The position numbers were made by a program, and so were the translations under genes. Shown here piece after piece: positions 184 to 13,879 of a DNA stretch of 64,000 bases (positions within the stretch are counted from its first letter, which is position 1; each line of letters starts with the position of its first letter). Source of the DNA: an uncultured Sulfitobacter sp. Lineage in GTDB: Bacteria; Pseudomonadota; Alphaproteobacteria; Rhodobacterales; Rhodobacteraceae. The notes below the pieces were generated by a model. It searched no databases. It had not been told where the DNA came from and was given only the letters and a program-made list of their open reading frames with translations. The DNA lies in contig CAJXSZ010000012.1 in NCBI GenBank assembly GCA_913060815.1, positions 1 through 64,000 on the forward strand, given 5' to 3'.

Positions 184-1356
184 ATGCATCAAAGGAAATT
201 TGGCATCCTGTTCCAATTGCGCATCGCCTGTGGAAAGCTAGTAAGTTCTGTCAGCCGACACAAATACCCGGTAATGAAATTCCTTTTGTCGTTCTGGCTT
301 GTCCCAGCAATCCAGATAGTTTCTCTGATCCGGCACCGGTCTGACGGTACTGATAAAACGACTGCAGTTGTTGTGACGTCCCGCTCTTATAATACCTCGG
401 CGTCATTTGCCTGTTTGATCCCAAAGTTGGAGGAAGCGTCGGTGGAGGTCATATTGCTATCCGAAAATCAGTCAGATTTGGGGCTGCTGGCAAAGATACG
501 GCATATCTATCGCTTCTTCGGGCTGTGTAAGACTGCGGACTATGTTTTCCTGGACGACACCTATTTGCCCGTCTCTTATGCACTTAAATACAAGTGGCTT
601 TTTCGGCCCCGTGTCGTTCAGCTTTGGCATAGCGCTGGCCTGTTCAAGCGTGTTGGCCTTGATATCACATCCAGCTGGCTGGCGACGTCTTTGATGAAGT
701 TAAATTTTAGAAATTTCGATCTTGTCGTCGTGAGTGCGGAACACTGCAGAGCGCCGATTGCGGGATTTATGGGAATAGATACCGAAAAGGTCGTAGCACT
801 CGGGACAAGCTACACCGATAGATACTTTCTCGAGGATGCTAAAGAAAACAGTGAGCGCATGGCGGCGGGTAAAAAAATAATTGTTTATGCGCCTACATTC
901 CGAGGAGATGCGCATAAGGTGAAGCCTAGCCCAGCCCCCAGCGTCGCACGTGTTTTCGCAAAACTGGGAGCAGGGGCCGAGTGCTATATCTCAACGCATC
1001 CCCAAGAGAATTTCATGTCGGAAGCGTTCAAGCCGCAGTTCAAGCTTTCTGATGCGTTGAGCGAAATAGATGTGCTGATCACCGACTATAGCTCGATTGC
1101 AATGGATTACATGTTGGCTAACCCGCAGGGCGCGCTTGTTCTGTATGTTCCAGACTATCAAGAGTATGAATCCTCTGTCGGGTTCTATGTCTCAATGAAC
1201 GAGGTTTCAGAGAATGTTGCTTTCGATGAGGCTGATCTCATCAGAATTCTGTCTTCGGATGTGTCCGGTGGCTTTGACACGTATCAAAAGAACTATCTGA
1301 ACCGCTGTGACGGGAAGGCAACGGATCGCCTTCTCAAATATCTGCAAATTACCTGA
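184..1356 (+). CDS. CDP-glycerol/CDP-ribitol glycerophosphotransferase family protein (TagB/TarL-like)
   Basis: Predicted to transfer glycerol-phosphate or ribitol-phosphate from a CDP-activated donor onto a lipid- or sugar-linked acceptor at the inner face of the membrane, as in teichoic acid and some Gram-negative capsule pathways. The protein is 390 residues from the ATG at 184. A hydrophobic, basic N-terminus (about 1-55) could associate with the membrane. The family signatures LWHSAG, YAPTFRGD and the C-terminal LITDYSSIAMDY are all visible. The frame stays open upstream into the adapter, but the ATG at 34 is artificial; 184 follows a GGGG purine run by about 10 bp, and 274 is another possible start. 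GC content is visibly lower than in the sox genes (about 42 percent in the 60-base line at 1141). The neighbours are an IspD/TarI-like cytidylyltransferase and a pyruvyl transferase on the opposite strand, which fit a polyol-phosphate polymer. The acceptor and polyol are unknown. Confidence 0.8.
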   Translation: MHQRKFGILFQLRIACGKLVSSVSRHKYPVMKFLLSFWLVPAIQIVSLIRHRSDGTDKTTAVVVTSRSYNTSASFACLIPKLEEASVEVILLSENQSDLGLLAKIRHIYRFFGLCKTADYVFLDDTYLPVSYALKYKWLFRPRVVQLWHSAGLFKRVGLDITSSWLATSLMKLNFRNFDLVVVSAEHCRAPIAGFMGIDTEKVVALGTSYTDRYFLEDAKENSERMAAGKKIIVYAPTFRGDAHKVKPSPAPSVARVFAKLGAGAECYISTHPQENFMSEAFKPQFKLSDALSEIDVLITDYSSIAMDYMLANPQGALVLYVPDYQEYESSVGFYVSMNEVSENVAFDEADLIRILSSDVSGGFDTYQKNYLNRCDGKATDRLLKYLQIT

Positions 1357-1383
1357 AGCAGTTCAGCACCAGCCCTTACTGCT
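1357..1383. terminator. weak hairpin between convergent genes
   Basis: Inverted repeat AGCAGT (1357-1362) and ACTGCT (1378-1383) with a 15-nt loop, starting directly after the stop codon of the glycerophosphotransferase and lying before the stop of the convergent cytidylyltransferase. There is no clear T-run, so termination activity is only a guess. Confidence 0.25.
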
Positions 1384-1396
1384 GTCACAGATAGAT

Positions 1397-2095
1397 CTAT
1401 GCGCCGTCCTCTATGAGGATTTTTGCGGTCAGGAAATCCGAATGAGTCGTGATTTTGATGTTGGATTGATCACACTCCACCGGCGCAGCGGATACGCCGA
1501 AGTTCTCCATCAGTGAGTAGGTGTCCACAAATTCGGTGCCCGCGCTGAAAGCTTGCTCTGCTGCGGGGAGCACATCGTCTATTTTGTAGCATTGTGGTGC
1601 TCTCGCAATGACGCAACTCATACGGTCGAGTGCTTTGTATTGCGCGCTCGTCGCATCCTCGCGGTACAGAATAGTCTCGTTGCACGATACAATTGTAACA
1701 GCACTCCCATGTGCGTCGACAGCGGCGATATTTCTGGAGATGAGATCATCGTCAATAATCGGGCGTACGCCGTCGTGGATAAGGACCGTGTCGTTCTGCT
1801 CGGAAAAGCGGCTCAGACGCCGCAGGCCGATCAGTATAGACTCTTGTGCAGAGGCCCCGCCAGAAATCACGTCAATAACCTTCGAGAGCCCGTGCTTTGC
1901 TACTTCGGCGTGGAATTGCTGGGTGTGGGTTTCAACACAGACAATCAAAATGCCATCGATTTGCGGATGGCGTTGAAACTTCTCTACTGTGAGCGAAAGA
2001 ATGGATTGCCCCCCGATCTGGAGGAATTGCTTTGGAATATCGCCGGAGTTCATCCGTTTCCCGACACCACCAGAGAAAATAAGGGCTAAGTTCAT
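1397..2095 (-). CDS. IspD/TarI-like cytidylyltransferase (copy 1)
   Basis: A 232-residue nucleotidyltransferase of the IspD/TarI family, which couples CTP with a polyol phosphate (ribitol-5-phosphate, glycerol-3-phosphate or methylerythritol phosphate) to give a CDP-polyol. The N-terminal signature FSGGVGKRM and PKQFL (residues 7-25) binds CTP. IHDGVRP (106-112) matches the HDxxRP motif of the family, and an NIKITT segment lies near the C-terminus. The company of a TagB-like transferase and a second paralogue at 12117 argues for a TarI-like role in surface polymer synthesis rather than isoprenoid IspD, but the substrate cannot be read from sequence. It lies 117 bp downstream of the pyruvyl transferase gene on the same strand, so the two are probably co-transcribed. 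Confidence 0.8.
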   Translation of the reverse strand: MNLALIFSGGVGKRMNSGDIPKQFLQIGGQSILSLTVEKFQRHPQIDGILIVCVETHTQQFHAEVAKHGLSKVIDVISGGASAQESILIGLRRLSRFSEQNDTVLIHDGVRPIIDDDLISRNIAAVDAHGSAVTIVSCNETILYREDATSAQYKALDRMSCVIARAPQCYKIDDVLPAAEQAFSAGTEFVDTYSLMENFGVSAAPVECDQSNIKITTHSDFLTAKILIEDGA

Positions 2096-2184
2096 CTTCT
2101 GTCATCCAGAGTGAAGGGGGTTGCGTGATGAAGGCTGGGCCTGTGGCTCGAAGATTAACATACAACCTAAAGAACAGTAACGCG

Positions 2185-2201
2185 CTTTTGGAAATCAAAA
2201 G
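2185..2201. other. short inverted repeat after the pyruvyl transferase gene
   Basis: CTTTTG (2185-2190), five bases, CAAAAG (2196-2201), about 12 bp beyond the stop of the minus-strand gene at 2213. It could form a small AT-rich hairpin in the spacer; its function is unknown. Confidence 0.25.
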
Positions 2202-2212
2202 TCAGCGTCCAT

Positions 2213-3403
2213 CTAGCTGTCTGCCAGTACTGAGCGCACAAAGTTGTCGAGCTCGAATTTTGTCTTGGCTTTGAGCTCGTCGCGGCGGTCTGTGTCGTAT
2301 TCATAAAAGTCAGCGTCCAGCAATTTCTGAGCCATATTTTCGGCATCCATCTCTGTCTCCCGAAAGAACATATTTCGCTGGCCCGTCAACTCCGACAAAC
2401 GGGTGAGCTTTTCGTTCCAGATCAAGCCGACAACGGGAACGTTCAAGGAATAGGCCGTAATGCACGCATGCATCCGCGCGCCAAAAATATTTTTGAAGCC
2501 AGAGATGATGCCAACCATTTCGCGTGCGGTTTGCGGCGGAGGCAGGAGAAGCGAAGACGGTTTTCCCAGAGCATCGAGAAGCTTCAGACCAAACTCATGA
2601 TCCGACTTCATCCCGTTCGAGAACAAGACCCAATCAGCCTCCTTTGCATCAAGAGCGGAAAGAAGTCCGATGTAGAAAGCCTCAAGCTCTGCTGGGGTGA
2701 GTTTGTTGTCATAGGCCGTGTAAATATCGGGTCGGATGACGTTCACACCGATAGTTGCGCTGTCTTGTTTGGCCGCTGCATAGCATTCGGGAATCCAAAA
2801 AGCAGGATCGCCCACCAATGCAGTGTGAACAGGGTCGCTTACAGCGTAATCACCTTCAAGGATTTCGATGAAATCACGTGTGGTGACGGTGTGAATGCAG
2901 GGGCTTTGCAGCGTCTGCTTCAGCCGTGCGCAACGGTAGTCGTCGATATCAAACCCTTCGATACCAACGGCGGAGAGCATCACAGGAATGTCGTTCTTCT
3001 CACAAATCTCGACGACCTGCTCCACAAGGTAGTTCAGGCCTTGGTTACGGTATTTGAGAAAACCACCGCCTGAAAAGATCACTGCATTGCAGGTGGGGAT
3101 GACGGATTTGAAATGCCATTGGAAGCGCAACCGCCATACGAAACTCTCGATGTGGTAGCGTGCTTTGGAACTTGTCAGGAATTTCAGCAAAACAGGGACA
3201 ACGATCCGCGTCAGGAATGCCGCAACCAACAGGTTGAGTTTGCGGATGCCCGGATAGGAAGAAAGCCCGCGCGGGGCTGCATCCACGTCCACAATCTCGA
3301 CCCTGTCCGCATAGTCTTTCAGCAGGAAACGGGAGCTTTCGCAGATGACCAGATCCCCCATGTTGTCGATGCTATAAAGCCCAACCAGCCCGATCTTCTT
3401 CAT
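2213..3403 (-). CDS. polysaccharide pyruvyl transferase family protein (copy 1)
   Basis: A 396-residue GT-B-like protein of the polysaccharide pyruvyl transferase family (CsaB/WcaK type), whose members add ketal-linked pyruvate from phosphoenolpyruvate to surface sugars. Visible family features are the N-terminal IGLVGLYSIDNMGD segment, a central SGGGFLKY stretch, and the C-terminal block with GARMHACITAYSLNVPVVG, which contains the conserved RMH. Members of this family are also found in loci where pyruvylation has not been shown, so the reaction is inferred. A related paralogue lies at 10826-12094. The gene sits between the copy-1 cytidylyltransferase and soxG on the same strand, with 151 bp separating it from soxG, so it may be read through from sox or from its own promoter in 3404-3554, where I see no clear promoter. 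Confidence 0.75.
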   Translation of the reverse strand: MKKIGLVGLYSIDNMGDLVICESSRFLLKDYADRVEIVDVDAAPRGLSSYPGIRKLNLLVAAFLTRIVVPVLLKFLTSSKARYHIESFVWRLRFQWHFKSVIPTCNAVIFSGGGFLKYRNQGLNYLVEQVVEICEKNDIPVMLSAVGIEGFDIDDYRCARLKQTLQSPCIHTVTTRDFIEILEGDYAVSDPVHTALVGDPAFWIPECYAAAKQDSATIGVNVIRPDIYTAYDNKLTPAELEAFYIGLLSALDAKEADWVLFSNGMKSDHEFGLKLLDALGKPSSLLLPPPQTAREMVGIISGFKNIFGARMHACITAYSLNVPVVGLIWNEKLTRLSELTGQRNMFFRETEMDAENMAQKLLDADFYEYDTDRRDELKAKTKFELDNFVRSVLADS

Positions 3404-3554
3404 ATCATAGTGCCCATGTGAAATTTTACGCCGTCTTATCCGTAGCCTATTATTGGCGGTGTCTACCTCAAGCTACAGCCGTTGGATACGCAAGAATGAA
3501 GGGCTGGCCGTGGATTGCGGCTTTCAGCTGCGCAGCGATTGGTGGCATCACCGC

Positions 3555-4118
3555 CTATGCTGTGGACGTTGCCGCCGTAATCAATGCGTGGTGCAATGTG
3601 CGTGCGGATGCACGCGGGCCGAGGATGCGCAGATGCTGCGGGTCGTTGCGTTGCAAGACAAAGCAACCGAGTTGGTGGACAACGGTGCGCTGCGCATCAC
3701 CTCCCTGCATCCGGCGCACATTGGCGGCGCAAAGCCGCTCCATGACGTTCACCATGCCCGTCCCGACCAGATCAAAACAAACCCAGCCGCCCGATTGCTC
3801 GGTAATGGAGGCTGCCGTGCCAAAGCGCGATTTCAGGTCATCGGCCAAATGCGGATGTGTCGCTTTGGGCGCGCCAATCATCCACTGATCAGGCCCCATC
3901 CAGAAACCGGCCTCTGGATCATGCAAGACCGCCTTGCCGGGCTGTGGCACTGCACCGAGCAAATCCTTAAGACCGGCATGACATGCCGCCTCGGACCCTA
4001 GCCGCGCGGAGAGGGACGCCAGTGCCAAACCGTCATTCTCGGTAAGTGTGACGTGTGCGAAACGATCGACACGCGGTGTGGCTTCGCCAAGGGCGGTCAC
4101 AGGTTTCAGATCATGCAC
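3555..4118 (-). CDS. soxG: sarcosine oxidase gamma subunit
   Basis: A 187-residue small subunit of heterotetrameric sarcosine oxidase, related to the GcvT/YgfZ fold. It helps form the folate-binding and assembly interface of the complex that demethylates sarcosine to glycine, transferring the one-carbon unit to tetrahydrofolate with production of hydrogen peroxide. The assignment rests on length, a GFWMGPDQWMI core segment, a GGWVCFDLVG segment, and position as last gene of soxB-D-A-G. Its start overlaps the end of soxA by 8 bp, implying translational coupling. The family diverges fast, so the sequence evidence alone is moderate; the operon context makes the call firm. Confidence 0.9.
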   Translation of the reverse strand: MHDLKPVTALGEATPRVDRFAHVTLTENDGLALASLSARLGSEAACHAGLKDLLGAVPQPGKAVLHDPEAGFWMGPDQWMIGAPKATHPHLADDLKSRFGTAASITEQSGGWVCFDLVGTGMVNVMERLCAANVRRMQGGDAQRTVVHQLGCFVLQRNDPQHLRILGPRASARTLHHALITAATSTA

Positions 4119-7050
4119 GGAGCCGTACTCCTTCGGGGTCGATAAAGTGGGGGCTAACGATTTCGACCTCAGTCTCGACGCCCGTCAACGGGCTGACAAG
4201 GCGCAACCGCTCGCCCATCCGCTCGGCCCCGTTCTTGAGAAAGCCCAAGGCGATGGCATACCCGAGATTGGGGGAGTAGCACGCCGAGGTAACATAGCCC
4301 TGATCATGTGCTGCATCCACGGGACCGTCTAGGTTCATCAGGTGCGCCCCTGCGGAAACGGGCTGCGTCGGGTCAACAGGGCGGATGCCGACCTGTCGCA
4401 AATCATCCGCTGTGTTCAGCCCTTCGCGCTCTGACAGGATCGACCCGATGCTGTCTTTCTTCTTGGATACCATCCGCCCCATACCGAGGTTCTGCGCGGT
4501 GGTCGTACCGTTGAGCTCGTTGCCTGCCGCGTGGCCTTTTTCAATCCGCATGACGCCGAGGGCCTCGGTGCCATAGGGTGTGATGTCGAATTCGGCGCCA
4601 GCCTCCATGATGCGGCGCATGAGCGCGTCACCGTAAGGGGTCGGGACAGCGATCTCGAAGGCCAGTTCCCCGCTGAAGGAAATGCGGAACAGACGTGCGC
4701 GCAGACCGCCACACACGGTGATATTGGCGCAAGCCATAAAGGGGAACGCCTCGTTCGAGATGTCCTGATCGACGATTTTTTCCAGCACCTTGCGGCTGTT
4801 GGGACCCGCGACAGCGTATTGCGCCCAGCCTTCCGTGGTCGAGATCAGTTGCACGTCCAGATCAGGGAACAGGCATTGGCGCACGAACTCCATATGGCGG
4901 TAGACGGGCAGGGCGTTCGCGGTGGTGGTCGTAACCACGAAATGATCCTCGGCCAGCCGTGCGGCGGTGCCATCGTCCATCACAATCCCGTCCTCACGCA
5001 GCATCAGGCCATAGCGGGTCTTGCCCACGGCCAGTTTGGCGAACCCGTTGCAATAGACCTTGTTCAGGAAAGTCGCCGCATTCGTGCCTTGCACATCGAT
5101 CTTGCCTAATGTTGTCACATCGCACACGCCAACAGAGCGGCGCGTGGCCAGCACTTCGCGGTCCACGCTCTCGCGCCATGTCGTCTCACCCGCACGGGGG
5201 AACCACTGCGCGCGCATCCAGTTGCCGACCTCGACAAAGACAGCGCCCTGCTCCGCGGCCCATTGGTGGCTGGGTGTAAGGCGTTTGGGGTGGAAATCCT
5301 GGCCACGGTGCCTGCCGCCAAACACGCCAATGGCGGTGGGCGTATAGGGGGGGCGGAAGATAGTTGTACCCACCTCGGGAATGGTCTTGCCCGCAAGCCC
5401 GGCCATGATGGCAAGGCCGCCCATGTTCGAGGTTTTGCCTTGATCTGTGGCCATGCCGAGCGTAGTATAGCGCTTGAGATGCTCGACAGAGCGAAAGCCC
5501 TCTTGATGGCTCAGTTTCACGTCCTTAACCGTCACGTCGTTTTGCTGGTCCAGCCATGCGCGCGAACAGCCCTCGACGTACCAGAAGGGTTTTATGTTGA
5601 CGGGGGCGTCTTCTGCCGTGGGCAGCGCAGGCGGAGCAGCTTGGATGTCCAGCGCATCCATCGCCGCCTGCATGCCGCTGTGCAATGCGCCTGCTGTGGA
5701 AAGATCACCCTGCGCCGCACCAGCAACACTCATGCCGCTTGGCGAATCACGCCCCGGCACGAACGCAGCCAGCGCGTCATTCCAAACGGGGCGGCCGCGT
5801 TGGTGGCAGGTCAAATGCACATTGGGGTTCCAGCCGCCCGACATGCCCAATGCGCCACATTCCAACGTGCGTGTCGTCCCATCCGCGAGGCGCAGCTCTG
5901 CAAACGTCAGGCCCAGGCGGCCTTTGGTATCGATCACCTCACCTTGCAACACCTCATAATCAGTGCTGCGCGGCGCATCCGCGCGCACGTCAACCACGGC
6001 TGCAATCTTGATGCCCTTGGCGTGCAGATCGGCCGCGGTGCGGTGGCCGTCATCGTTATTGGTAAAGATCGCCACGCGCTTGTCTGCGGCAACGGCAAAG
6101 CGGTTGGCATAGGTGCGCAAAGCAGACCCCAGCATGATACCAGGACGGTCATTATTCTCAAATGCGATAGGACGCTCGGTAGCACCTGCGGCCAGAATGG
6201 TCCGCTTGGTGTAAATACGCCACAAAATCTGGCGGGGCTTGCCAGTGTCCGGCGTGTGCACATGGTCACTGACCCGCTCAACCGCCCCATAGATGCCGTG
6301 ATCAAAGGCACCGATTACGGTCGTGCGCGGCATCACTCTGACATTCGGCATGCTGGCAAGCTCGGCCACCGTTGCGGCGGCCCAATCCGCACCGCTTTGA
6401 TCGCCCAAGGCATATGTCTCGCTGTTGAGCCGTCCGCCCATGCGGAAATCCTCATCCGCAATGATGACATCACCACCCGCACGACCTGCCGTGAGTGCAG
6501 CAGACAGACCCGCAGGGCCAGCCCCGATGATCAGCAGGTCACAGTGCAAGAACCCTTTGTCATAGACATCAGGATCATCTTTGAGCGACAGTGACCCAAG
6601 GCCAGCGGCACGGCGGATGATCGGCTCATAGAGCTTTTCCCAGAACGCGGCGGGCCACATGAAGGTCTTGTAGTAGAACCCCGCCGTGAGGAAGTTAGAC
6701 AAACGGTCATTGATCGACAGCAGATCGAGTTTGAGCGACCCCAGACGGTTCTGGCTGCGGGCGAACAGCCCGTCATAAAGCTCAGCTGTAGTGGCGCGGG
6801 TGTTGGGTTCCTGCCGCGCACCTGCGCGCAATTCGACTAGCGCGTTCGGCTCTTCCGAGCCTGCGGTCAGCGGCCCGCGCGGGCGGTGGTATTTGAACGA
6901 GCGCCCCATGAGGCGCACCCCGTTGGCCAACAGCGCCGACGCCAACGTATCGCCTGCGTGACCTTGATAGGTCTTGCCGTCAAAGATGAATTCAGGCGCT
7001 GTAAGGCGGTCGATCTGGCCGCCAGAGGAAAGTCTGTTTTTCTGGCTCAT
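4111..7050 (-). CDS. soxA: sarcosine oxidase alpha subunit
   Basis: The large subunit (979 residues, usual family size) of cytosolic heterotetrameric sarcosine oxidase. Domains in order: an N-terminal ferredoxin-like segment (about 20-80), an NAD(P)-binding Rossmann domain with IGAGPAGLSAA (about 175-185), a central region, and a C-terminal GcvT-like tetrahydrofolate-binding domain from about residue 600. It receives electrons and the methylene group produced at the beta subunit and forms 5,10-methylene-THF. The ATG overlaps the soxD stop by 4 bp, so translation is probably coupled. GC is high (about 65 percent in the line at 5221), clearly unlike the flanking surface-polymer genes. Confidence 0.97.
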   Translation of the reverse strand: MSQKNRLSSGGQIDRLTAPEFIFDGKTYQGHAGDTLASALLANGVRLMGRSFKYHRPRGPLTAGSEEPNALVELRAGARQEPNTRATTAELYDGLFARSQNRLGSLKLDLLSINDRLSNFLTAGFYYKTFMWPAAFWEKLYEPIIRRAAGLGSLSLKDDPDVYDKGFLHCDLLIIGAGPAGLSAALTAGRAGGDVIIADEDFRMGGRLNSETYALGDQSGADWAAATVAELASMPNVRVMPRTTVIGAFDHGIYGAVERVSDHVHTPDTGKPRQILWRIYTKRTILAAGATERPIAFENNDRPGIMLGSALRTYANRFAVAADKRVAIFTNNDDGHRTAADLHAKGIKIAAVVDVRADAPRSTDYEVLQGEVIDTKGRLGLTFAELRLADGTTRTLECGALGMSGGWNPNVHLTCHQRGRPVWNDALAAFVPGRDSPSGMSVAGAAQGDLSTAGALHSGMQAAMDALDIQAAPPALPTAEDAPVNIKPFWYVEGCSRAWLDQQNDVTVKDVKLSHQEGFRSVEHLKRYTTLGMATDQGKTSNMGGLAIMAGLAGKTIPEVGTTIFRPPYTPTAIGVFGGRHRGQDFHPKRLTPSHQWAAEQGAVFVEVGNWMRAQWFPRAGETTWRESVDREVLATRRSVGVCDVTTLGKIDVQGTNAATFLNKVYCNGFAKLAVGKTRYGLMLREDGIVMDDGTAARLAEDHFVVTTTTANALPVYRHMEFVRQCLFPDLDVQLISTTEGWAQYAVAGPNSRKVLEKIVDQDISNEAFPFMACANITVCGGLRARLFRISFSGELAFEIAVPTPYGDALMRRIMEAGAEFDITPYGTEALGVMRIEKGHAAGNELNGTTTAQNLGMGRMVSKKKDSIGSILSEREGLNTADDLRQVGIRPVDPTQPVSAGAHLMNLDGPVDAAHDQGYVTSACYSPNLGYAIALGFLKNGAERMGERLRLVSPLTGVETEVEIVSPHFIDPEGVRLRA

Positions 7051-7334
7051 GTGCTGCGTCCCCGCCTGCGCGCCACATCGCGGGCCAGCTCAACCTTCGA
7101 GATTTCGTGGGTCACCGTATCGCGGGTCACGACCAGCCATGATCTGTCGCCAGCTTCATGGAACCAAAGCTCTTCATGCGGGCCGGCGGGATTGTCTCGC
7201 AGATAGCCATATTCATAAAATTCGCGGGCGGCGTTTGTAGACTGCCAGTCGGGTCTGTCGATCAGCTTTGCATCGCCCATATAGGTGAATTCGGCGGCAT
7301 CGCGGGGGCCCAACAGGGGGTGGTTGAGAATCAT
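7047..7334 (-). CDS. soxD: sarcosine oxidase delta subunit, zinc ligands missing
   Basis: A 95-residue delta subunit recognised by its position between soxB and soxA and by the segments LRDNPAGPHEELWFHEAGDR and TRDTVTHEI. In the structurally known enzyme the delta subunit binds zinc through Cys6, Cys9, His59 and Cys63 (recalled from the Corynebacterium structure). Here His59 is kept, but positions 6, 9 and 63 are Pro, Gly and Asp, and the protein contains no cysteine at all. It therefore belongs to a zinc-free subtype or to an enzyme acting on a relative of sarcosine. The start lies 13 bp after soxB and the end overlaps soxA by 4 bp. Confidence 0.9.
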   Translation of the reverse strand: MILNHPLLGPRDAAEFTYMGDAKLIDRPDWQSTNAAREFYEYGYLRDNPAGPHEELWFHEAGDRSWLVVTRDTVTHEISKVELARDVARRRGRST

Positions 7335-7347
7335 GGCTGCGCTCCGC

Positions 7348-8598
7348 TCAATGCAGGTTGGGCTGATTGCCCACCCCTTTTTCGTCGATCATGTAACCCC
7401 TCTCGAAACGGTCAAAGCGATAGGCTGTGGCGGTGGGATGCGGCGTATCTTTTGCCAGCAAATGGGCGAAGCATAAGCCGCTGGCGGGTGTTGCCTTGAA
7501 CCCGCCGTAGCACCAGCCACCGTTGAAATAGAGGCCGTCAATATGGGTGCGGTCGATGATGGGCGAACCGTCCATCGACATGTCCATGATGCCGCCCCAC
7601 ATGCGCAGCAGCCGCGCACGGCCCAGGGCGGGGAAGATCGCCATGCCGCCCTCGCAGACATCCTCGACAACTGGCAGGTTGCCACGCTGGGCATAGGAGT
7701 TGTAGCCGTCTATGTCGCCCCCGAACACCAGCCCGCCCTTGTCAGACTGGCTGACATAAAAATGCCCTGCGCCGAAGGTCACGACACCTGGCAGAACGGG
7801 CTTGAGGCCTTCGGAGACAAAGGCCTGCAAAACATGGCTTTCGATGGGCAGTCGCATATCGGCCTTGGCCATCAGACGGCCAGATGAACCCGCCACGGCA
7901 CAGCCGACTTTGCCCGCACTGATGAACCCGCGGGAGGTTTCGACCCCGAGGCACTTGCCGTTCTCGATGCGGAAACCCGTCACTTCGCAGTTCTGGATGA
8001 TGTCGACACCGTGGCTGTCCGCGCCGCGGGCATAGCCCCACGCAACCGCATCATGGCGCACTGTGCCGCCGCGGTGCTGGGCGAGCCCGCCCTTGATCGG
8101 GAAGCGGGCATCATGGGTGTTGAGGAAGGGGTAGCGTTCCTTGATCTGTTTGGTCGACAGCATTTCGGCATCTGCCCCGTTGAGGATCATGGCATTGCCA
8201 CGACGGATAAACGCGTCGCGCTGGGCGTCGGAGTGGATCAGGTTCAGGATGCCGCGTTGCGAGATCATCGCGTTATAGTTCAGGTCCTGCTCCAGCCCTT
8301 CCCACAGCTTGAGCGAAAACTCGTAGAATGGCTCATTCCCGTCCAGCAGGTAATTGGAGCGGATGATTGTCGTGTTGCGGCCCACGTTACCGCCCCCGAT
8401 CCAGCCTTTCTCGAGCACGGCAATCCGCTTTTGCTTGAACTCTTTGGCCAAATAATACGCTGTGGCAAGCCCATGACCGCCGCCGCCGATGATCACCATA
8501 TCATAATGCGACTGCGGCTCGGGCTCACGCCATGCAGGGGTCCAGCCTTTGTGGCCAGTCAGTGCTTCTTTGATCACTTTGAAACCTGAATAGCGCAT
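7348..8598 (-). CDS. soxB: sarcosine oxidase beta subunit
   Basis: A 416-residue flavoprotein of the DAO/glycine oxidase family that carries the FAD and covalent FMN of heterotetrameric sarcosine oxidase and oxidises sarcosine to glycine. The dinucleotide motif VIIGGGGHGLATAYYLA is at residues 35-51, and RHDAVAWGY at 181-189 is the region where the covalent FMN histidine lies in this family. The start at 8598 gives the normal family length and is preceded by a GGGGG Shine-Dalgarno; the frame stays open 77 codons further upstream without homology. First gene of soxB-D-A-G. Two inverted repeats in its 5' region (8629-8669) are candidate operator sites. Confidence 0.97.
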   Translation of the reverse strand: MRYSGFKVIKEALTGHKGWTPAWREPEPQSHYDMVIIGGGGHGLATAYYLAKEFKQKRIAVLEKGWIGGGNVGRNTTIIRSNYLLDGNEPFYEFSLKLWEGLEQDLNYNAMISQRGILNLIHSDAQRDAFIRRGNAMILNGADAEMLSTKQIKERYPFLNTHDARFPIKGGLAQHRGGTVRHDAVAWGYARGADSHGVDIIQNCEVTGFRIENGKCLGVETSRGFISAGKVGCAVAGSSGRLMAKADMRLPIESHVLQAFVSEGLKPVLPGVVTFGAGHFYVSQSDKGGLVFGGDIDGYNSYAQRGNLPVVEDVCEGGMAIFPALGRARLLRMWGGIMDMSMDGSPIIDRTHIDGLYFNGGWCYGGFKATPASGLCFAHLLAKDTPHPTATAYRFDRFERGYMIDEKGVGNQPNLH

Positions 8599-8628
8599 GG
8601 TGTGACCCCCTTTTCTGCGCAGATTGCA

Positions 8629-8669
8629 GCAAAGATTTTTGCGATGCAGGTTGAGTTGGGACATCAACC
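8629..8669. promoter_or_regulatory. two inverted repeats upstream of soxB (candidate operators)
   Basis: Repeat one is GCAAA-gatt-TTTGC (8629-8642). Repeat two is GGTTGA, nine bases, TCAACC (8649-8669). Their outer edges lie about 30 and 70 bp upstream of the soxB ATG, a normal place for a regulator of sarcosine/betaine catabolism. No regulator gene is adjacent, so the binding protein is unknown. Confidence 0.35.
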
Positions 8670-8805
8670 ATTCTGTTTGCGACATGGGTGGGGTGTCCAT
8701 CGGTCGAGTTTTCCCCGAACGGCAGCCATCAGACTTGCTGCCAACACAGCCGTTCAAACCCCACATTTTAACGAGCAATCGCAGGGTGTGCAGGCTTGCC
8801 AGCCC

Positions 8806-8834
8806 TTGACTAATTCGGGAAATCACCATTGCAA
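8806..8834 (+). promoter_or_regulatory. possible promoter of the licD cluster
   Basis: TTGACT preceded by CCC, a good match to the alphaproteobacterial -35 (CTTGAC), then 17 bp and TTGCAA, a poor -10. It lies about 75-100 bp upstream of licD. The same CCCTTGACT string occurs upstream of aspS at 13958-13966. Confidence 0.3.
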
Positions 8835-8908
8835 CGAATACGCTTACCGCGTAACAGACCTGCGTACATATTGCGCGGTACGAGCAGATTATTTAGGCAT
8901 GAGAATAC

Positions 8909-9787
8909 ATGGAACAGGTTTACACGACGTGTGACTTAGAGCGATTGGCCAGCGACGCCGAACTCAAAGACGGTCTTCTGGAAATGCTTGTGGCGTTTGA
9001 CGCGTTTTGTAAAGAGCATGGTCTCACTTATTATTTGTCGGGCGGTACGTTGCTTGGCGCTGTGCGCCACAAGGGCTTCATTCCATGGGATGATGACATT
9101 GATGTGAACATGCCAAGACCCGACTGTGAAAAGCTGATGGAGCTTTCGGGCGGGAAGATCGGCAACTTCACACTGGTGCCGCCTAACAACGTAGCGCGCA
9201 CTTTTGCATACCACTGGAAGCTGTATGGCGATGACGTTCTGGTGTCCAAGCGCGTAGACGGTAAAAAAAGCGGTATCGGCCGCAAAATTTATCCTGCGTT
9301 TATGGACATTTTCCCGATCGAAGGATTGCCAGAAAACTACGACGACGCGGTTACGCATTACGCGAAGATCAAGCAGATCAAGCGCAAGGCAAGGTTTCAG
9401 GTTTTCCAGACGCAGTACCGCGGTCGCAACCCACTTACCAAGATCAAATACAAGCTTGCACAGCTGTATTTTGGCTATCTGGACAGCACCAACTACCATG
9501 ACGAAGTAATCAAACTGGCGAAGAAGTACTCCTTTGAGGACTCCGAGCATGTTGGCGTTATGATGACGGACGTGCATGGCATCGTAGAGCGGGTTGAAAA
9601 GAGTGACTATGCGCCTGTGATCCATATGGATTTCGAGGGTAAGTCCGTTCAATGCCCAGCGGGTCATCACACCTACCTTGAGCAGCTTTACGGCCCGAAA
9701 TACATGGAAATTCTGCCGCCTGCCAAACAGTTTTCGCGGCACAGCCTTGTGACATTCAAGCGCAAAAAGACGGCCCAGATTGATCCT
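8909..9787 (+). repeat. LicD domain repeat, unit 1
   Basis: First unit (codons 1-293) of an in-frame tandem duplication inside one gene. The offset between units is 969 bp (323 codons), including a linker of about 30 codons (codons 294-323) that follows only the first unit. Confidence 0.9.
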
Positions 9788-10825
9788 GCCATATTTCCAC
9801 GCGAAATACCGCACGTCGAGGAGCCTGCCAGAGATCACGCCGCCGAGCGCGCCGCGTTCAATGTGGCGCGTGGCAAAATGGAAGAGCTCTATACTGTTGA
9901 CGATCTAGATCGATTGGCAAGCGACGACGAACTCAAGGCAGGTCTGCTGGAAATGCTCGTGGCGTTTGATGCGTTCTGCAACGAGCATGGTCTGACCTAT
10001 TATCTGTCTGGCGGGACGCTGCTGGGTGCGGTGCGCCACAAGGGGTTCATTCCTTGGGATGATGATATCGACGTCAATATGCCCCGACCCGACTGCGAAA
10101 AGCTGATGGCGCTTTCGGGCGGGAAAATTGGCAACTTCACTCTGGTGCCGCCAAACAGCATCCCGCGCACGTTTGCCTACCACTGGAAGCTATACGGTGA
10201 CGATATCCTCGTGTCGAAGCGCGGTGGCGGCAAAAAGGGCGGGATCGGTTCAAAGATATACCCTGCCTTCATGGACATCTTCCCGATTGAAGGATTGCCT
10301 GATGACTACGCGCAAGCGCGCCAGCACTACCGCAAGCTGCGGAATGCAAAAAAGCGGGCACGTTTTCAGGCATTCGCTCCCAAGTTTGCCGGGCGTAATC
10401 CTGTGCGCATGTTGAAACATATGTATAAGCGATTCCGTACCCAATACTTTGATGTGACCAACTACCACGATGAAGTGATCAAGCTCGCTAAAAAGTATCC
10501 GTATCAGGTGTCCGATTATGTGGGCGTGATGATGACGGATGTGCATGGCATCGTCGAGCGCGTGAACAAGGCGGAGTATGCGCCAGTGGTAGAGATGGAA
10601 TTCGAAGGAAAGACTGTCAAATGCCCCGCGGGTGCGGACACCTATCTGCGGCAGCTCTACGGTGAAAATTACATGGACATCCTGCCGCCCGAGAAGCAGT
10701 TTTCGCGGCATAGCCTTGTTGTTTTCAAACGGAAAAAAGATGCGGAAATTGACCCGTCGTTGCTGATTGAAGATGAAGACGATACTGTCGAGCAATCACC
10801 GATGCCAGAAGAGGATAAAGTTTAG
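8909..10825 (+). CDS. tandem LicD-LicD fusion (CDP-substrate phosphotransferase)
   Basis: A 638-residue protein made of two full LicD domains, residues 1-293 and 324-616, joined by a charged linker and ending in an acidic tail. LicD-family enzymes (bacterial phosphocholine transferases; eukaryotic fukutin and FKRP) move a phospho-alcohol from a CDP donor onto a sugar. Each half has YYLSGGTLLGAVRHKGFIPW followed by DDDIDV (acidic residues 61-65 and 384-388), the metal-binding catalytic motif, so both halves look active. The first 76 residues of the halves differ at only 8 positions, while many third codon positions differ, which suggests an older duplication kept by selection. The gene abuts the next gene with no spacer. 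The partner cytidylyltransferase two genes downstream probably makes the donor. Substrate and acceptor are unknown. Confidence 0.9.
   Translation: MEQVYTTCDLERLASDAELKDGLLEMLVAFDAFCKEHGLTYYLSGGTLLGAVRHKGFIPWDDDIDVNMPRPDCEKLMELSGGKIGNFTLVPPNNVARTFAYHWKLYGDDVLVSKRVDGKKSGIGRKIYPAFMDIFPIEGLPENYDDAVTHYAKIKQIKRKARFQVFQTQYRGRNPLTKIKYKLAQLYFGYLDSTNYHDEVIKLAKKYSFEDSEHVGVMMTDVHGIVERVEKSDYAPVIHMDFEGKSVQCPAGHHTYLEQLYGPKYMEILPPAKQFSRHSLVTFKRKKTAQIDPAIFPREIPHVEEPARDHAAERAAFNVARGKMEELYTVDDLDRLASDDELKAGLLEMLVAFDAFCNEHGLTYYLSGGTLLGAVRHKGFIPWDDDIDVNMPRPDCEKLMALSGGKIGNFTLVPPNSIPRTFAYHWKLYGDDILVSKRGGGKKGGIGSKIYPAFMDIFPIEGLPDDYAQARQHYRKLRNAKKRARFQAFAPKFAGRNPVRMLKHMYKRFRTQYFDVTNYHDEVIKLAKKYPYQVSDYVGVMMTDVHGIVERVNKAEYAPVVEMEFEGKTVKCPAGADTYLRQLYGENYMDILPPEKQFSRHSLVVFKRKKDAEIDPSLLIEDEDDTVEQSPMPEEDKV
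9878..10756 (+). repeat. LicD domain repeat, unit 2
   Basis: Second unit (codons 324-616). It aligns with unit 1 over its whole length without obvious gaps, including the catalytic DDDIDV and the C-terminal KQFSRHSL segment. Confidence 0.9.
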
Positions 10826-12094
10826 ATGCGTATTGCGATATGTGGCCTCATTAAGAGTGAGAATATTGGTGAATTGTTTATTGCAAGGGGCCTCGAATAT
10901 ATCGTTCAGAAGGAGCTTGCCAAAGTAGATCCCGATATTGATGTTGAATTCGTCGAGGTTGATCTGCTGGGTCGGAATGACGAGATCACAGCGGTTTCCG
11001 GCTCTATTCAGAAGCGTCTGGCGAACTATTACAACTATTCACCCAAAGGTATCTTCACCGAAAAGGTATCGCTGGCTCTCAAGAAACGCGGGCTGCAGGT
11101 TGAAAACAAGTTTGTGAAAAACGCGATTGCGCGATTCCGCCATATGCTTTGGTTGAATGGCATCAACTACAAGAAGCGTTTGAACAGCTATTTTGACAAG
11201 AAGCTGGAAGGTGTTGATTTCATCATCATCGATGGTGCTGGTCTTCTTGAATACAGCTATAACGAATATCAGTGGCCGCTGCTTTTGATCAGTGAGTACG
11301 CTGAAAAGCACAATCTGAACGTTGTCTATAACGCCATTGGGCGTGCTGGCGCATTTGATGAGCGTGACTTTGGCAGCAAGCTGCTGAAGCGTGCGCTTCA
11401 ATCCCCTGCGGTTAAGTCGATCTCTGCCAGAGACAATCCCGAAGCGGTGCAGGCCTGTGCAGGTGGTAAGCACGAGGTGAAGCTGTTGGCTGATGCGGCG
11501 TTCTGGATGAAGGAGGCGTATCAGATCCCGGACAATCCCGACCGCAAGAAGATCGGCATCGGCATTATCCGCGGGAACAGCCTGCAAGGGTATGGTGTCG
11601 ATTTTGGCGCTCGCGACTGGATCAACCTTTTTTCGAAGATCGCATATCAACTTCAGAAGCGTGGCTACGAATATGAGTTCTTTACCAATGGTTTGCCTGC
11701 TGACACCGTACTCGGTCGAAAGATTCTGAAGAAGTTGAAGCTGCCATCCGAATACCTTGTGACACGCCCTGTGGACGACGGCCCCTTGGTCGAGACAATC
11801 AACGGATATCAGGGCATCATTACCTGCAGAATGCATTCGTCAATCGCTGCATTTACAATGGGTGTGCCGTCTGTGATCCTGTCATGGAATGACAAGGTCG
11901 AAAAGTTGATGGAAATCATCGGGTACCCAGATCGCGCGATCAAGCAAGATCAGTTTGATGCGGTGTATATCGTGGATAAGCTTGAGCAAAGCTTGGCCGA
12001 GGGCATTGCGGATGGAAAGCTGCAAAAAATGAAGGATTTGGCGACAGAAAGTGTCACCGACTACTTGCCCCTCATTGTAGAATGCAAAAAATAA
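10826..12094 (+). CDS. polysaccharide pyruvyl transferase family protein (copy 2)
   Basis: A 422-residue member of the polysaccharide pyruvyl transferase family, related to the protein at 2213-3403 but clearly diverged. Visible landmarks are MRIAICGLIKSENIGELF at the N-terminus, IIIDGAGLLEY in the middle, and CRMHSSIAAFTMGVPSVIL near the C-terminus with the RMH triad shared with copy 1. Its ATG directly follows the licD stop, so translation is coupled. GC is low (about 42 percent in the line at 10861). It probably acts with LicD on the same glycan, either adding a pyruvate ketal or acting as an unusual transferase; the reaction is inferred only from family. Confidence 0.75.
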   Translation: MRIAICGLIKSENIGELFIARGLEYIVQKELAKVDPDIDVEFVEVDLLGRNDEITAVSGSIQKRLANYYNYSPKGIFTEKVSLALKKRGLQVENKFVKNAIARFRHMLWLNGINYKKRLNSYFDKKLEGVDFIIIDGAGLLEYSYNEYQWPLLLISEYAEKHNLNVVYNAIGRAGAFDERDFGSKLLKRALQSPAVKSISARDNPEAVQACAGGKHEVKLLADAAFWMKEAYQIPDNPDRKKIGIGIIRGNSLQGYGVDFGARDWINLFSKIAYQLQKRGYEYEFFTNGLPADTVLGRKILKKLKLPSEYLVTRPVDDGPLVETINGYQGIITCRMHSSIAAFTMGVPSVILSWNDKVEKLMEIIGYPDRAIKQDQFDAVYIVDKLEQSLAEGIADGKLQKMKDLATESVTDYLPLIVECKK

Positions 12095-12116
12095 TCATCT
12101 AGGAATTGTAGGTACC

Positions 12117-12821
12117 ATGAATATTGCTCTTTTAACCGCTGCCGGTACTGGCTCGCGCATGAACAACGACGTGCCGAAGCAGTTTCTTCATGTCAAAAAC
12201 AAGCCTTTGATTGTTCACACGTTGGAGCAGTTTCAAAAGCATCCTAGCATTGATCAGATTATCATCGTGACGCTGCCAGCTTGGGTCGAGGTCATCAAAG
12301 CCTACTCAAAAGAATTCAAGATCACCAAATTGAAGTGGATTGTTGAAGGTGGCAGCACCGGTCAGGAATCCATTTTCAAGGGCCTGGAAACGCTCAAGGA
12401 TGAGGGGTTGACGGAAGACGACGTTGTGATGATCAACGACGGGAACAGATGCAACATCTCGCCCGAACTCATCTCCGACAGCTTGTCAGTCTTCGCCGAA
12501 TTCGGAAGCGCGGTTGCCGCAATTCCATGCGTCGAGGCGGTTTTCAAAAGCCATGATGGTGGCAAGTCCTCAACACAGTCCATCCCCCGCGAAGAGCTTT
12601 ACAGAACGCAGACACCGCATACGTACACGCTTGGTAAGTTGCTGTGGGCGCATAAAGAAGCGGGTGAAAGGGGCATTGCCGATACAGCCGCGTCCTGTTC
12701 GTTGATGGAAGCGCTTGGCGAAGAGGTGCACTTCTCAAAGGGTCTTGAGACGAACCTCAAGATCACAACGCAAGAAGATCTTTTGATTTTCAAAGCGCTT
12801 TTGAACGCCCGAAACAAGTAG
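12117..12821 (+). CDS. IspD/TarI-like cytidylyltransferase (copy 2)
   Basis: A 234-residue CTP-dependent cytidylyltransferase expected to produce the CDP-activated donor used by the LicD protein. TAAGTGSRM and PKQFL (residues 7-24) form the CTP site. The usual HDxxRP motif reads NDGNRC (107-112), so His and Pro of the motif are replaced by Asn and Cys; this and the neighbours argue that it is not the housekeeping IspD. NLKITT near the C-terminus is retained. The start follows AGGAATTGTAGGTACC, a good ribosome site, 22 bp after the preceding stop. The closest functional idea is TarI or eukaryotic ISPD/CRPPA (CDP-ribitol), but a CDP-choline-like or other CDP-alcohol product is equally open. Confidence 0.8.
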   Translation: MNIALLTAAGTGSRMNNDVPKQFLHVKNKPLIVHTLEQFQKHPSIDQIIIVTLPAWVEVIKAYSKEFKITKLKWIVEGGSTGQESIFKGLETLKDEGLTEDDVVMINDGNRCNISPELISDSLSVFAEFGSAVAAIPCVEAVFKSHDGGKSSTQSIPREELYRTQTPHTYTLGKLLWAHKEAGERGIADTAASCSLMEALGEEVHFSKGLETNLKITTQEDLLIFKALLNARNK

Positions 12822-12832
12822 GCAATCAGCAG

Positions 12833-13879
12833 ATGTATAGCGACACCTATTGGCAGCAGATTGAACAGGTTGCTACGTCGAATGACGGCTATGAAGCCCT
12901 GTTCGGCAAAACCGTTCTGATCACGGGGGCAACCGGCCTTGTTTGCTCGTCTGTTGTTGATCTTCTGTTGGTGCTGAACAAGGTAAAGAATGCCGACATC
13001 AAAGTTGTGATTGCAGGGCGTTCCGAGGCGAAAGTCGGGGCGTTTTTCGCGCATCATTCAAACCGTGACGCGCTTTCCTTTACCCAATTCGATGCCACGG
13101 ATACCAGTGTCGCGCCCTTTAGCGGCTCTATTGACTATGTAATCCATGCTGCCAGCAATGCCACACCATCAGAGTTCGCTGCACATCCGATTGATACAAT
13201 TCTGGCAAATGTGCTGGGGCTGAACAACCTTTTGAGCGCTGCAGTAAAATCCTCTGTAAAGCGGGTTTTGTATGTTTCATCGAGCGAGGTTTACGGCTCG
13301 AACAAGACTGGCGATCCGTATCTCGAGACGGATTATGGCCCGATTGACGTTTTAAACAGCCGCGCTGCCTACCCGCTGTCAAAGCAAACGGGCGAGTCGT
13401 TGTGCATTTCGTACGGCGTCGAGCATGATCTGGACACTGTGATCGTAAGGCCGGGACACATCTACGGGCCATTGGTCAACAAATACGACAATCGTGCCTC
13501 TGCCCAGTTTGCGAGAATGGTGAAGTCGGGCTCGGATATCGTTCTGAAAAGTGACGGGAAGCAGTTGAGATCATATTGCCATGCGCTGGATTGCGCATCT
13601 GCGATGCTCTCGGTTCTCGTCGCCGGCGAAAGCGGGAACGCGTACAATATCTCCAATCCGCATTCGATCTGCACCATCAGCGAACTGGCTGCCGAAATTG
13701 CCAAGGCTGGTAACGTGAAGGTCGTCTTTGAAGCGCCCACCGACGGTGAGAAGCGGGTCTTTAACATGATGGACAATTCCTCCCTCAATTCGACCAAGCT
13801 TGAGGGGTTGGGCTGGACGCCATGCTTCGATCTGGAAAGCGGCATCAACAACATGCTGGAAGACTTCAACGAGATTTGA
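12833..13879 (+). CDS. NAD-dependent epimerase/dehydratase (extended SDR)
   Basis: A 348-residue extended short-chain dehydrogenase of the nucleotide-sugar epimerase type. The Rossmann motif reads TGATGLVCSS (residues 31-40): the third glycine of GxxGxxG is Cys38. The catalytic residues are intact, with YVSSSEVYG (147-155) and Tyr180-xxx-Lys184 in AAYPLSKQTGE. It starts 11 bp after the cytidylyltransferase stop and closes the licD operon. It may make or reduce the sugar or polyol moiety that is then CDP-activated, or prepare a nucleotide sugar for the glycan; the substrate is unknown. Confidence 0.85.
   Translation: MYSDTYWQQIEQVATSNDGYEALFGKTVLITGATGLVCSSVVDLLLVLNKVKNADIKVVIAGRSEAKVGAFFAHHSNRDALSFTQFDATDTSVAPFSGSIDYVIHAASNATPSEFAAHPIDTILANVLGLNNLLSAAVKSSVKRVLYVSSSEVYGSNKTGDPYLETDYGPIDVLNSRAAYPLSKQTGESLCISYGVEHDLDTVIVRPGHIYGPLVNKYDNRASAQFARMVKSGSDIVLKSDGKQLRSYCHALDCASAMLSVLVAGESGNAYNISNPHSICTISELAAEIAKAGNVKVVFEAPTDGEKRVFNMMDNSSLNSTKLEGLGWTPCFDLESGINNMLEDFNEI

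Follow-up and report, generated by a model that had tools for sequence, protein, structure and literature searches.

We describe a gene cluster at the start of a contig from an uncultured Sulfitobacter sp. (assembly GCA_913060815.1, contig CAJXSZ010000012.1), whose first 64,000 nucleotides are called the window below. With a probability of roughly 0.6 we read this cluster as one gained by horizontal transfer, Clostridia-like in type and serving to make a surface polymer of polyol phosphates akin to teichoic acids. Textbooks describe teichoic acids as polymers of Gram-positive bacteria. The original prediction had proposed a cytidine diphosphate (CDP)-polyol, teichoic-acid-like locus on both sides of a sox operon, and this outline is supported by the protein families, by the closest match of an extended short-chain dehydrogenase/reductase (SDR) and by synteny with Clostridia. 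The reading draws on gene content, rarity in the sampled genomes, synteny and residue patterns.

All named locus genes are intact open reading frames (ORFs). The predicted inventory, consisting of a TagB/TarL-like transferase, two cytidylyltransferases, two pyruvyl transferases, a double LicD and an epimerase-type SDR around soxBDAG, is confirmed by family matches:

1-48, no strand: contig-end assembly artefact with a Nextera adapter at 15-48 (adapter motif match)
184-1356, plus strand: PF04464 protein, putative polyol-phosphate transferase, TagB/TarF-like (tagB; PF04464, 103.9 bits, cut-off 22.1)
1397-2095, minus strand: cytidylyltransferase A, IspD fold (PF01128, 136.7 bits)
2213-3403, minus strand: pyruvyl transferase A (PPT-A; PF04230, 67.8 bits, cut-off 25.3)
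3555-8598, minus strand: sarcosine oxidase operon soxB-soxD-soxA-soxG (TIGR01372, TIGR01373)
8909-10825, plus strand: LicD-LicD fusion (licD2; PF04991 in two stretches, 289 bits, cut-off 22.6)
10826-12094, plus strand: pyruvyl transferase B (PPT-B; PF04230, 59.9 bits, cut-off 25.3)
12117-12821, plus strand: cytidylyltransferase B, IspD fold (PF01128, 146.4 bits)
12833-13879, plus strand: extended SDR, probable CDP-ketose reductase (PDB sequence match, PF01370)
From 14036, plus strand: aspS

The families concerned are scarce in the 3.51-Mb genome yet concentrated at the locus, and the cluster is therefore real rather than a chance grouping. The single PF04464 match of the genome lies here, as do two of three PF04991 matches (the LicD halves), two of three PF04230 matches and two of four PF01128 matches; a stronger PF01128 gene (203.2 bits) is found on contig C5.

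The assignment to CDP-polyol synthesis centres on cytidylyltransferase B and the SDR. The gene for B ends 11 bp before the SDR gene, and the two form a neighbouring PF01128 and PF01370 pair, the filter applied to CDP-polyol pairs in PMC10918830. The best PDB matches of the SDR are 8v4g/8v4h (E 6e-41), and the next one (E 2.5e-27) trails by about 14 orders of magnitude. The enzyme in these structures, HS5.17 of Campylobacter jejuni, reduces CDP-6-D-fructose to CDP-6-D-glucitol, after HS5.18 has coupled cytidine triphosphate (CTP) and fructose-6-phosphate (PMC10918830). PF01128 plus PF01370 pairs in more than 200 organisms were predicted to yield glucitol or mannitol, with the mannitol pair Mnp1/Mnp2 cited (PMC10918830), and an arabinitol enzyme, AbpA, has also been named (PMC10118250). 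The window SDR has about 23 residues ahead of its Rossmann fold and, in a multiple alignment, is identical to HS5.17 at eight of 17 active-site positions (R56, K60, E140, R164, Y167, K171, R208 and R233), with R56 and K60 unaligned in the pairwise alignment; the YxxxK motif, Glu140, Arg164, Arg208 and Arg233 are all present. Gln196, which contacts the glucitol side chain in HS5.17, is His in the SDRs of the window and of L114 and L115, the closest syntenic loci, both from Lachnospiraceae, and the residue expected of a CDP-6-D-glucitol synthase is missing. Hence, we leave the polyol unnamed: the His argues against glucitol, and mannitol, arabinitol or ribitol are candidates.

IspD-linked SDRs split into two groups at HS5.17 positions 100, 196 and 227. 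Ser/Gln/Thr is found in HS5.17, L116, L117, Paenibacillus, Parabacteroides, Lactiplantibacillus L75 and L231, and Pro/His-or-Arg/Ser in the window, L114, L115, Levilactobacillus, Lactiplantibacillus Lp900, Streptomyces and Leuconostoc. A single residue (Gln versus His/Arg at position 196) divides the compared reductases, and the groups may make different polyols. The linkage to IspD-type genes recurs on plasmids. Among 13 plasmid records with any SDR match, seven reach at least 80% coverage; all seven hold an IspD relative, directly adjacent in six, and five have a LicD or CDP-glycerol glycerophosphotransferase annotated beside or one gene from the pair (of the other two, one is unannotated and one has neither annotation). 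On a Parabacteroides plasmid (L203, 8238-10640), the IspD-SDR pair is followed by a ribulose-phosphate 3-epimerase and two CDP-glycerol glycerophosphotransferase family genes, a neighbourhood that would suit a pentulose as the substrate of this pair.

Neither cytidylyltransferase reaches the curated cut-off for a known substrate. On TIGR00453 (2-C-methyl-D-erythritol 4-phosphate cytidylyltransferase IspD, cut-off 181.3 bits) A scores 162.7 and B 166.1 bits, and on NF001183 (ribitol-5-phosphate cytidylyltransferase, cut-off 166 bits) 116.2 and 154.9 bits, respectively, B missing the latter narrowly. In a 19-sequence tree, A lies outside the TarI and IspD clades, and B likewise falls outside the TarI clade. 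B groups with the enzymes of L114 and L115 (support 100) and then with a lactobacillus enzyme (97). The placement of A has low support (76); its neighbours are the enzymes of L116, L117, Leuconostoc and a Lactiplantibacillus plasmid. B is 68% identical to the L114 enzyme and 33% identical to A.

These results bear on a ribitol-phosphate polymer locus of the TarI/ISPD plus LicD/FKTN type, where reduction to ribitol-5-phosphate would precede cytidylylation, and on the earlier claim of a bacterial counterpart of the ISPD plus fukutin/FKRP machinery. Such a locus would account for IspD-type enzymes occurring together with LicD and a TagB-like transferase, the best PDB match of B is a ribitol-5-phosphate cytidylyltransferase (4jis, E 8.5e-32), and a Sulfitobacter teichoic acid with ribitol and glycerol has been reported (PMC3210612). 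However, neither enzyme reaches the ribitol cut-off or falls within the TarI clade, B has relatives whose genes are linked to HS5.17-type SDRs, and the locus, the only part of the genome searched in this respect, contains no gene for a TarJ-type reductase. Since both enzymes miss the curated cut-offs and the SDR is nearest to a CDP-fructose reductase, ribitol/TarI/ISPD chemistry is not supported for either cytidylyltransferase, and the similarity to FKRP is limited to a stretch of 50 residues. We regard a ribitol-phosphate locus as improbable, and the mammalian parallel is not supported.

The two pyruvyl transferases share 25.5% identity. PPT-B is 64% identical over 420 amino acids to the L114 and L115 proteins, and PPT-A is closest to those of L116, L117 and L118 (34-35%). 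On the CsaB equivalog model TIGR03609 (cut-off 213.1 bits), the locus proteins score 33.5 and 39 bits. Arg202, Arg335, His337 and Lys357 are invariant in seven aligned pyruvyl transferases, two of which are near-identical. The residues binding phosphoenolpyruvate (PEP) in CsaB/Pvg1p are R148/R217, R306/R337, H308/H339 and K328/K361 (PMC10435577). CsaB is matched exactly in the RxH motif and in the distance of 20 residues from there to Lys; the first PEP-binding Arg was assigned by motif, and its spacing differs from CsaB (133 versus 158 residues). A predicted model of PPT-B (mean predicted local distance difference test score 79.9) adopts a glycosyltransferase B (GT-B)-like fold. In a fold search, Pvg1p (5ax7) appears at rank 35 of a second look (Z 18.2, root mean square deviation 3.6 over 262 residues); a PDB sequence search with the pyruvyl transferases gave no credible match. 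As the fold is of the general GT-B type, it leaves the function undecided by itself. Pyruvylation of a polyol phosphate is chemically reasonable, since pyruvate ketals are known from teichoic acids of the poly(mannitol phosphate) and the poly(ribitol phosphate) type (PMC6801904), and perhaps pyruvate is attached to the polymer. In L116, from a Clostridium metagenome-assembled genome, a second, different PF04230 protein (10924-11898) directly follows the IspD-SDR-pyruvyl transferase trio.

The PF04464 protein scores 51.5, 38.4 and 74.5 bits on the NCBIfam models for TarB, TarF and TarL, none of which reaches the cut-off (500, 550 and 1000, respectively). Among six PF04464-type proteins compared, its nearest is that of the Lachnospiraceae locus L114 (31% over 379 amino acids), and its putative role is chain start or transfer. 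The two LicD halves are 74% identical in protein and 73.6% in DNA, and both keep the stretch PWDDDIDV, which we take to be the metal site. Both are nearest to the second LicD of L114 (48% and 50%, versus 35% and 36% to the other one). The tandem looks like an internal duplication; a fusion of two ancestral LicDs was rejected, given the shared nearest relative and the likeness of the halves. In the synthesis of capsules and teichoic acids, PF04464 proteins draw on CDP donors, as does the LicD-family capsule enzyme CpsC, described as a polymerase for polyol phosphates (PMC11666461).

In the proposed mechanism, cytidylyltransferase B would couple CTP to a ketose phosphate (fructose-6-phosphate or pentulose-5-phosphate), and the SDR would reduce the resulting CDP-ketose with NADPH to a CDP-polyol; homology to HS5.18/HS5.17 and gene adjacency suggest this ketose-first, two-step route. 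Cytidylyltransferase A would supply a second CDP-ketose or CDP-polyol, with an SDR partner maybe encoded beyond the contig end. The genome holds one SDR match at E 1e-60 (five of 18 candidates scored), of the Pro/His/Ser kind, and the Gln-type partner expected for A may be absent, lie in an unassembled gap or be replaced by the one SDR. Judging from family and context, the PF04464 protein and the double LicD would transfer polyol phosphate from CDP donors to a lipid-linked acceptor or a growing chain. Finally, the two PF04230 proteins would use PEP to attach pyruvate as a ketal, each of them serving the polyol module to which it belongs, as the conserved residues and the linkage in Clostridia suggest. 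The substrates, the pyruvylation and the polymer type are thus what we infer from homology and context.

Several observations weigh against this reading. The SDR deviates from HS5.17 at nine of the 17 positions (N34, T98, S100, M139, T195, Q196, D212, T227 and Y295), and the shared residues, for the most part conserved in unpaired SDRs as well, are not diagnostic of the substrate. Nine other Pseudomonadota genomes have an SDR match at E 1e-60, and an IspD relative lies in the stretch of one of them (L231), some of these stretches being short and one SDR sitting at a contig edge; in L231, IspD adjoins the SDR, accompanied by LicD and a weak PF04464-type match. Two of the strongest SDR matches, L232 and L233, sit (by eye) among genes resembling CDP-deoxysugar clusters and share Pro100, His196 and Ser227 with the window SDR. 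The best PDB match of cytidylyltransferase A is an IspD (5ddt). The fold search places many GT-B enzymes above Pvg1p, and the pyruvyl transferase-like proteins could be glycosyltransferases. In the stretches taken, no IspD relative lies near distant PF04230 relatives at four Pseudomonadota loci or at the Cupriavidus plasmid L204, and the pyruvyl transferase of L118 is without IspD or SDR on its 8.3-kb contig. Moreover, the contig shows neither an exporter nor a polymerase partner nor a priming enzyme, and the Sulfitobacter brevis polymer is described with ribitol and glycerol, not hexitol. The SDR family is better described as CDP-sugar ketoreductases, and the CDP-polyol reading is likely because of the IspD-type partner 11 bp upstream, not because of the SDR family itself.

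By eye, the SDR genes at L232 (8970-10037) and L233 (9206-10279) stand beside genes for thiamine pyrophosphate-dependent-like enzymes, and L233 also has sugar-nucleotidyltransferase-like and dehydratase-like genes; these surroundings may represent CDP branched-chain sugar pathways, perhaps of the yersiniose type.

A bolder and doubtful extension holds that the triad of cytidylyltransferase, CDP-ketose reductase and PF04230 protein is an undescribed signature for pyruvylated polyol-phosphate polymers, present here in two versions from Clostridia-like donors that would yield one polymer with two pyruvylated polyols. Type 1 would comprise cytidylyltransferase A and PPT-A, of the kind that goes with Gln in the sugar-contacting position of the SDR, and type 2 cytidylyltransferase B, PPT-B and the LicD fusion, with His at this position. 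A literature search found nothing joining three of LicD, pyruvyl transferase, cytidylyltransferase and Lachnospiraceae, which is a thin basis for the word undescribed. Because L232 and L233 share the SDR pattern and distant pyruvyl transferases occur without IspD, we lowered our estimate for this extension and for the teichoic-acid-like reading, and slightly raised those for a ribitol-phosphate locus and for an ordinary O-antigen or capsule locus.

If the locus serves a common O-antigen or capsule, polyol phosphate would merely decorate a sugar backbone as a side chain, and the PF04230 proteins would pyruvylate sugars or transfer something else; the term teichoic-acid-like would then be overstated. 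Lactic-acid-bacteria plasmids indeed carry LicD, IspD and SDR in capsule-type loci with EpsG-family and glycosyltransferase genes, and the contig end would hide backbone genes. Yet the locus contains a PF04464 transferase, the closest syntenic loci combine PF04464 with ABC transporter genes, and no glycosyltransferase family exceeded its cut-off among the ten locus proteins scanned, so that we hold this explanation to be unlikely, marginally more so than a ribitol-phosphate locus. Neither an exporter or flippase nor a priming transferase was found within the 14-kb locus, which is cut short by the contig end next to tagB; beyond the locus, the search extended to contig ends only.

Synteny argues for the teichoic-acid-like reading. 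The order in L114 and L115 is PF02397 sugar transferase, GT2-like protein, PF04464, ABC permease, ABC ATPase, LicD, LicD, pyruvyl transferase and IspD, followed by GT2, a large protein and an inverted SDR gene (49-52% to the window SDR); Pfam annotation was run on L114 only. The plus strand of the window retains PF04464, LicD (doubled), pyruvyl transferase, IspD and SDR of this arrangement. The position of the transporter genes is taken by a minus-strand block of soxB, soxD, soxA, soxG, PPT-A and cytidylyltransferase A. L116 and L117 have IspD, SDR and pyruvyl transferase in a row. The original prediction had offered two alternatives, duplication of one module or interruption of an ancestral locus. 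The latter is a fair description of the geometry, since tagB and licD2 are co-directional as in L114 with the minus-strand block between them, and the order of events is what we infer from this layout. A recent duplication was rejected: the cytidylyltransferases are 33% and the pyruvyl transferases 25.5% identical, and each pair is nearer to a different Clostridia module. By sequence, these are two distinct cytidylyltransferase/pyruvyl transferase modules.

The sox genes encode sarcosine oxidase (TIGR01372 and TIGR01373 above cut-offs), not sulfur oxidation, and soxG is a weak match (42.7 bits versus a family cut-off of 143.95). The block is a separate accessory element inside the locus, catabolic and outside the polymer pathway. 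Of 57 other genomes examined from the genus, 18 have a soxA relative with at least 75% identity, and the identity reaches 87% in congeners. In the sox flanks of these 18 congeners (three of the stretches at most 10 kb), neither aspS nor polymer genes were found except for one weak SDR-family match. Likewise, neither locus genes nor this sox operon lie upstream of aspS in any of 18 congeners within the stretches taken, two of which extend only 0.4 and 2.8 kb upstream and one of which is partly masked. The operon is an extra copy, the genome having three soxA-like matches, and soxD is poorly conserved among relatives of the operon.

Horizontal acquisition from a Clostridia-type source is the best reading of the distribution, because the nearest named relatives found are Lachnospiraceae (64-68%) and the pyruvyl transferases are absent from all 61 other genomes of the genus. 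A profile of the locus PF04230 proteins (E 1e-15) matches one of 62 genus genomes, the present one. At E 1e-10, the double LicD has no match in 294 other genomes of the family; a search of 384 other Alphaproteobacteria with PPT-B at E 1e-15 was likewise negative. Across 398 Pseudomonadota, the pyruvyl transferase profile matches five other genomes (two of the same family) at up to 85.8 bits, versus 574-584 bits for the window's own proteins. A scan of named genomes with two short peptide patterns, which can miss relatives, confirmed five loci among 47 candidate stretches, all in Lachnospiraceae or Clostridium; with two of these, PPT-B shares 64% identity. A plasmid or viral origin was not borne out: LicD had no plasmid match at E 1e-20, the pyruvyl transferases had one (24%), and no relatives were confirmed in viral contigs. 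The transfer proposed at the outset is therefore supported, and the comparison across genomes suggested with it indicates that the locus genes are peculiar to this genome among those sampled, not a Rhodobacterales feature. The predicted lower GC content is correct in direction (surface genes 48.4-52.2%; soxG, soxA and soxB 59.8-61.1%; aspS 56.4%), but the values were off, as no whole gene is near 42% and soxA has 61%, not 65%. An assembly chimera or contamination with Clostridia DNA is very improbable: the locus is unique to one draft genome and adapters at contig ends reveal untrimmed reads, but the foreign genes flank a sox operon with soxA up to 87% identical to congeners and adjoin aspS (up to 95%), their closest Clostridia proteins are only 64-68% identical, and the GC content at third codon positions is 0.55-0.63.

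Among known systems, the CDP-6-D-glucitol pathway of C. jejuni HS:5 (HS5.18 and HS5.17; PMC10918830) has the same adjacent IspD-fold cytidylyltransferase and N-terminally extended SDR, whereas the window has additional pyruvyl transferases, the LicD-LicD fusion and a second cytidylyltransferase without a visible SDR. The Lachnospiraceae bacterium P6B14 locus L114 shares the TagB-like protein, LicD, pyruvyl transferase (64%), IspD (68%) and SDR (about 50%). It differs in that its two LicDs are unfused and 36% alike, ABC transporter genes separate the TagB-like gene from LicD, the SDR gene is inverted and about 5 kb away, and there is no sox block. The pyruvylated poly(mannitol phosphate) of Brevibacterium iodinum (PMC6801904) resembles the window by predicted chemistry, polyol phosphate plus pyruvate ketal; it is a wall teichoic acid of another phylum, with no genes named in the passages drawn on. 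A teichoic acid is also reported from S. brevis KMM 6006, a marine Gram-negative alphaproteobacterium (PMC3210612). This polymer contains ribitol, glycerol and N-acetylglucosamine, with neither pyruvate nor genes named in the description drawn on here, and may serve as a precedent at class level only.

The locus provides concrete candidate genes for an S. brevis-like polymer in the same bacterial class, and the likeness across phyla suggests that surface-polymer modules move between Clostridia-like donors and a Rhodobacteraceae-type bacterium. A testable rule emerges: where an IspD-type gene adjoins an HS5.17-like SDR, the chemistry is predicted to be ketose-first and not to involve ribitol. 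If confirmed, the IspD-SDR-pyruvyl transferase linkage would assign genes to pyruvylated polyol-phosphate polymers.

The first base of the window is the start of contig C12, and the left part of the locus is thus missing from the assembly. The adapter match at bases 15-48, which fits Nextera motifs, recurs in 49 of 82 contig-end stretches compared in the genome. Comparison of these 82 stretches with the proteins of the window, L114 and L116 gave two weak, generic ABC-ATPase matches (to L114/L116 proteins) and nothing else; they belong to about 0.52 Mb of the genome that was read, a set without C45 and the last 2.4 kb of C40. Six low-GC contig ends and two small contigs inspected by eye held no convincing candidate for the left half. 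Promoter (14 versus 9.4 in shuffles, standard deviation 3.8) and terminator scans (12 versus 14.9, standard deviation 4.7) were not used. ORFs called at adapter-bearing contig ends begin with artefact peptides (e.g., DVYKRQ), and automatic gene starts there can mislead.

On contig C41 (L012, 932-2403), by eye between rplJ-like and rplA-like genes, lie a gene for a TagD-like glycerol-3-phosphate cytidylyltransferase and one whose product matches LicD over a short stretch. The candidacy of the TagD-like enzyme as a locus-specific source of CDP-glycerol was weakened by its commonness in the genus and by a narrowly missed TIGR01518 cut-off (154.3 versus 165.4). At E 1e-8, TagD-like matches are present in 49 genomes out of the 58 from the genus, including this one, and CDP-glycerol may be common in the genus.

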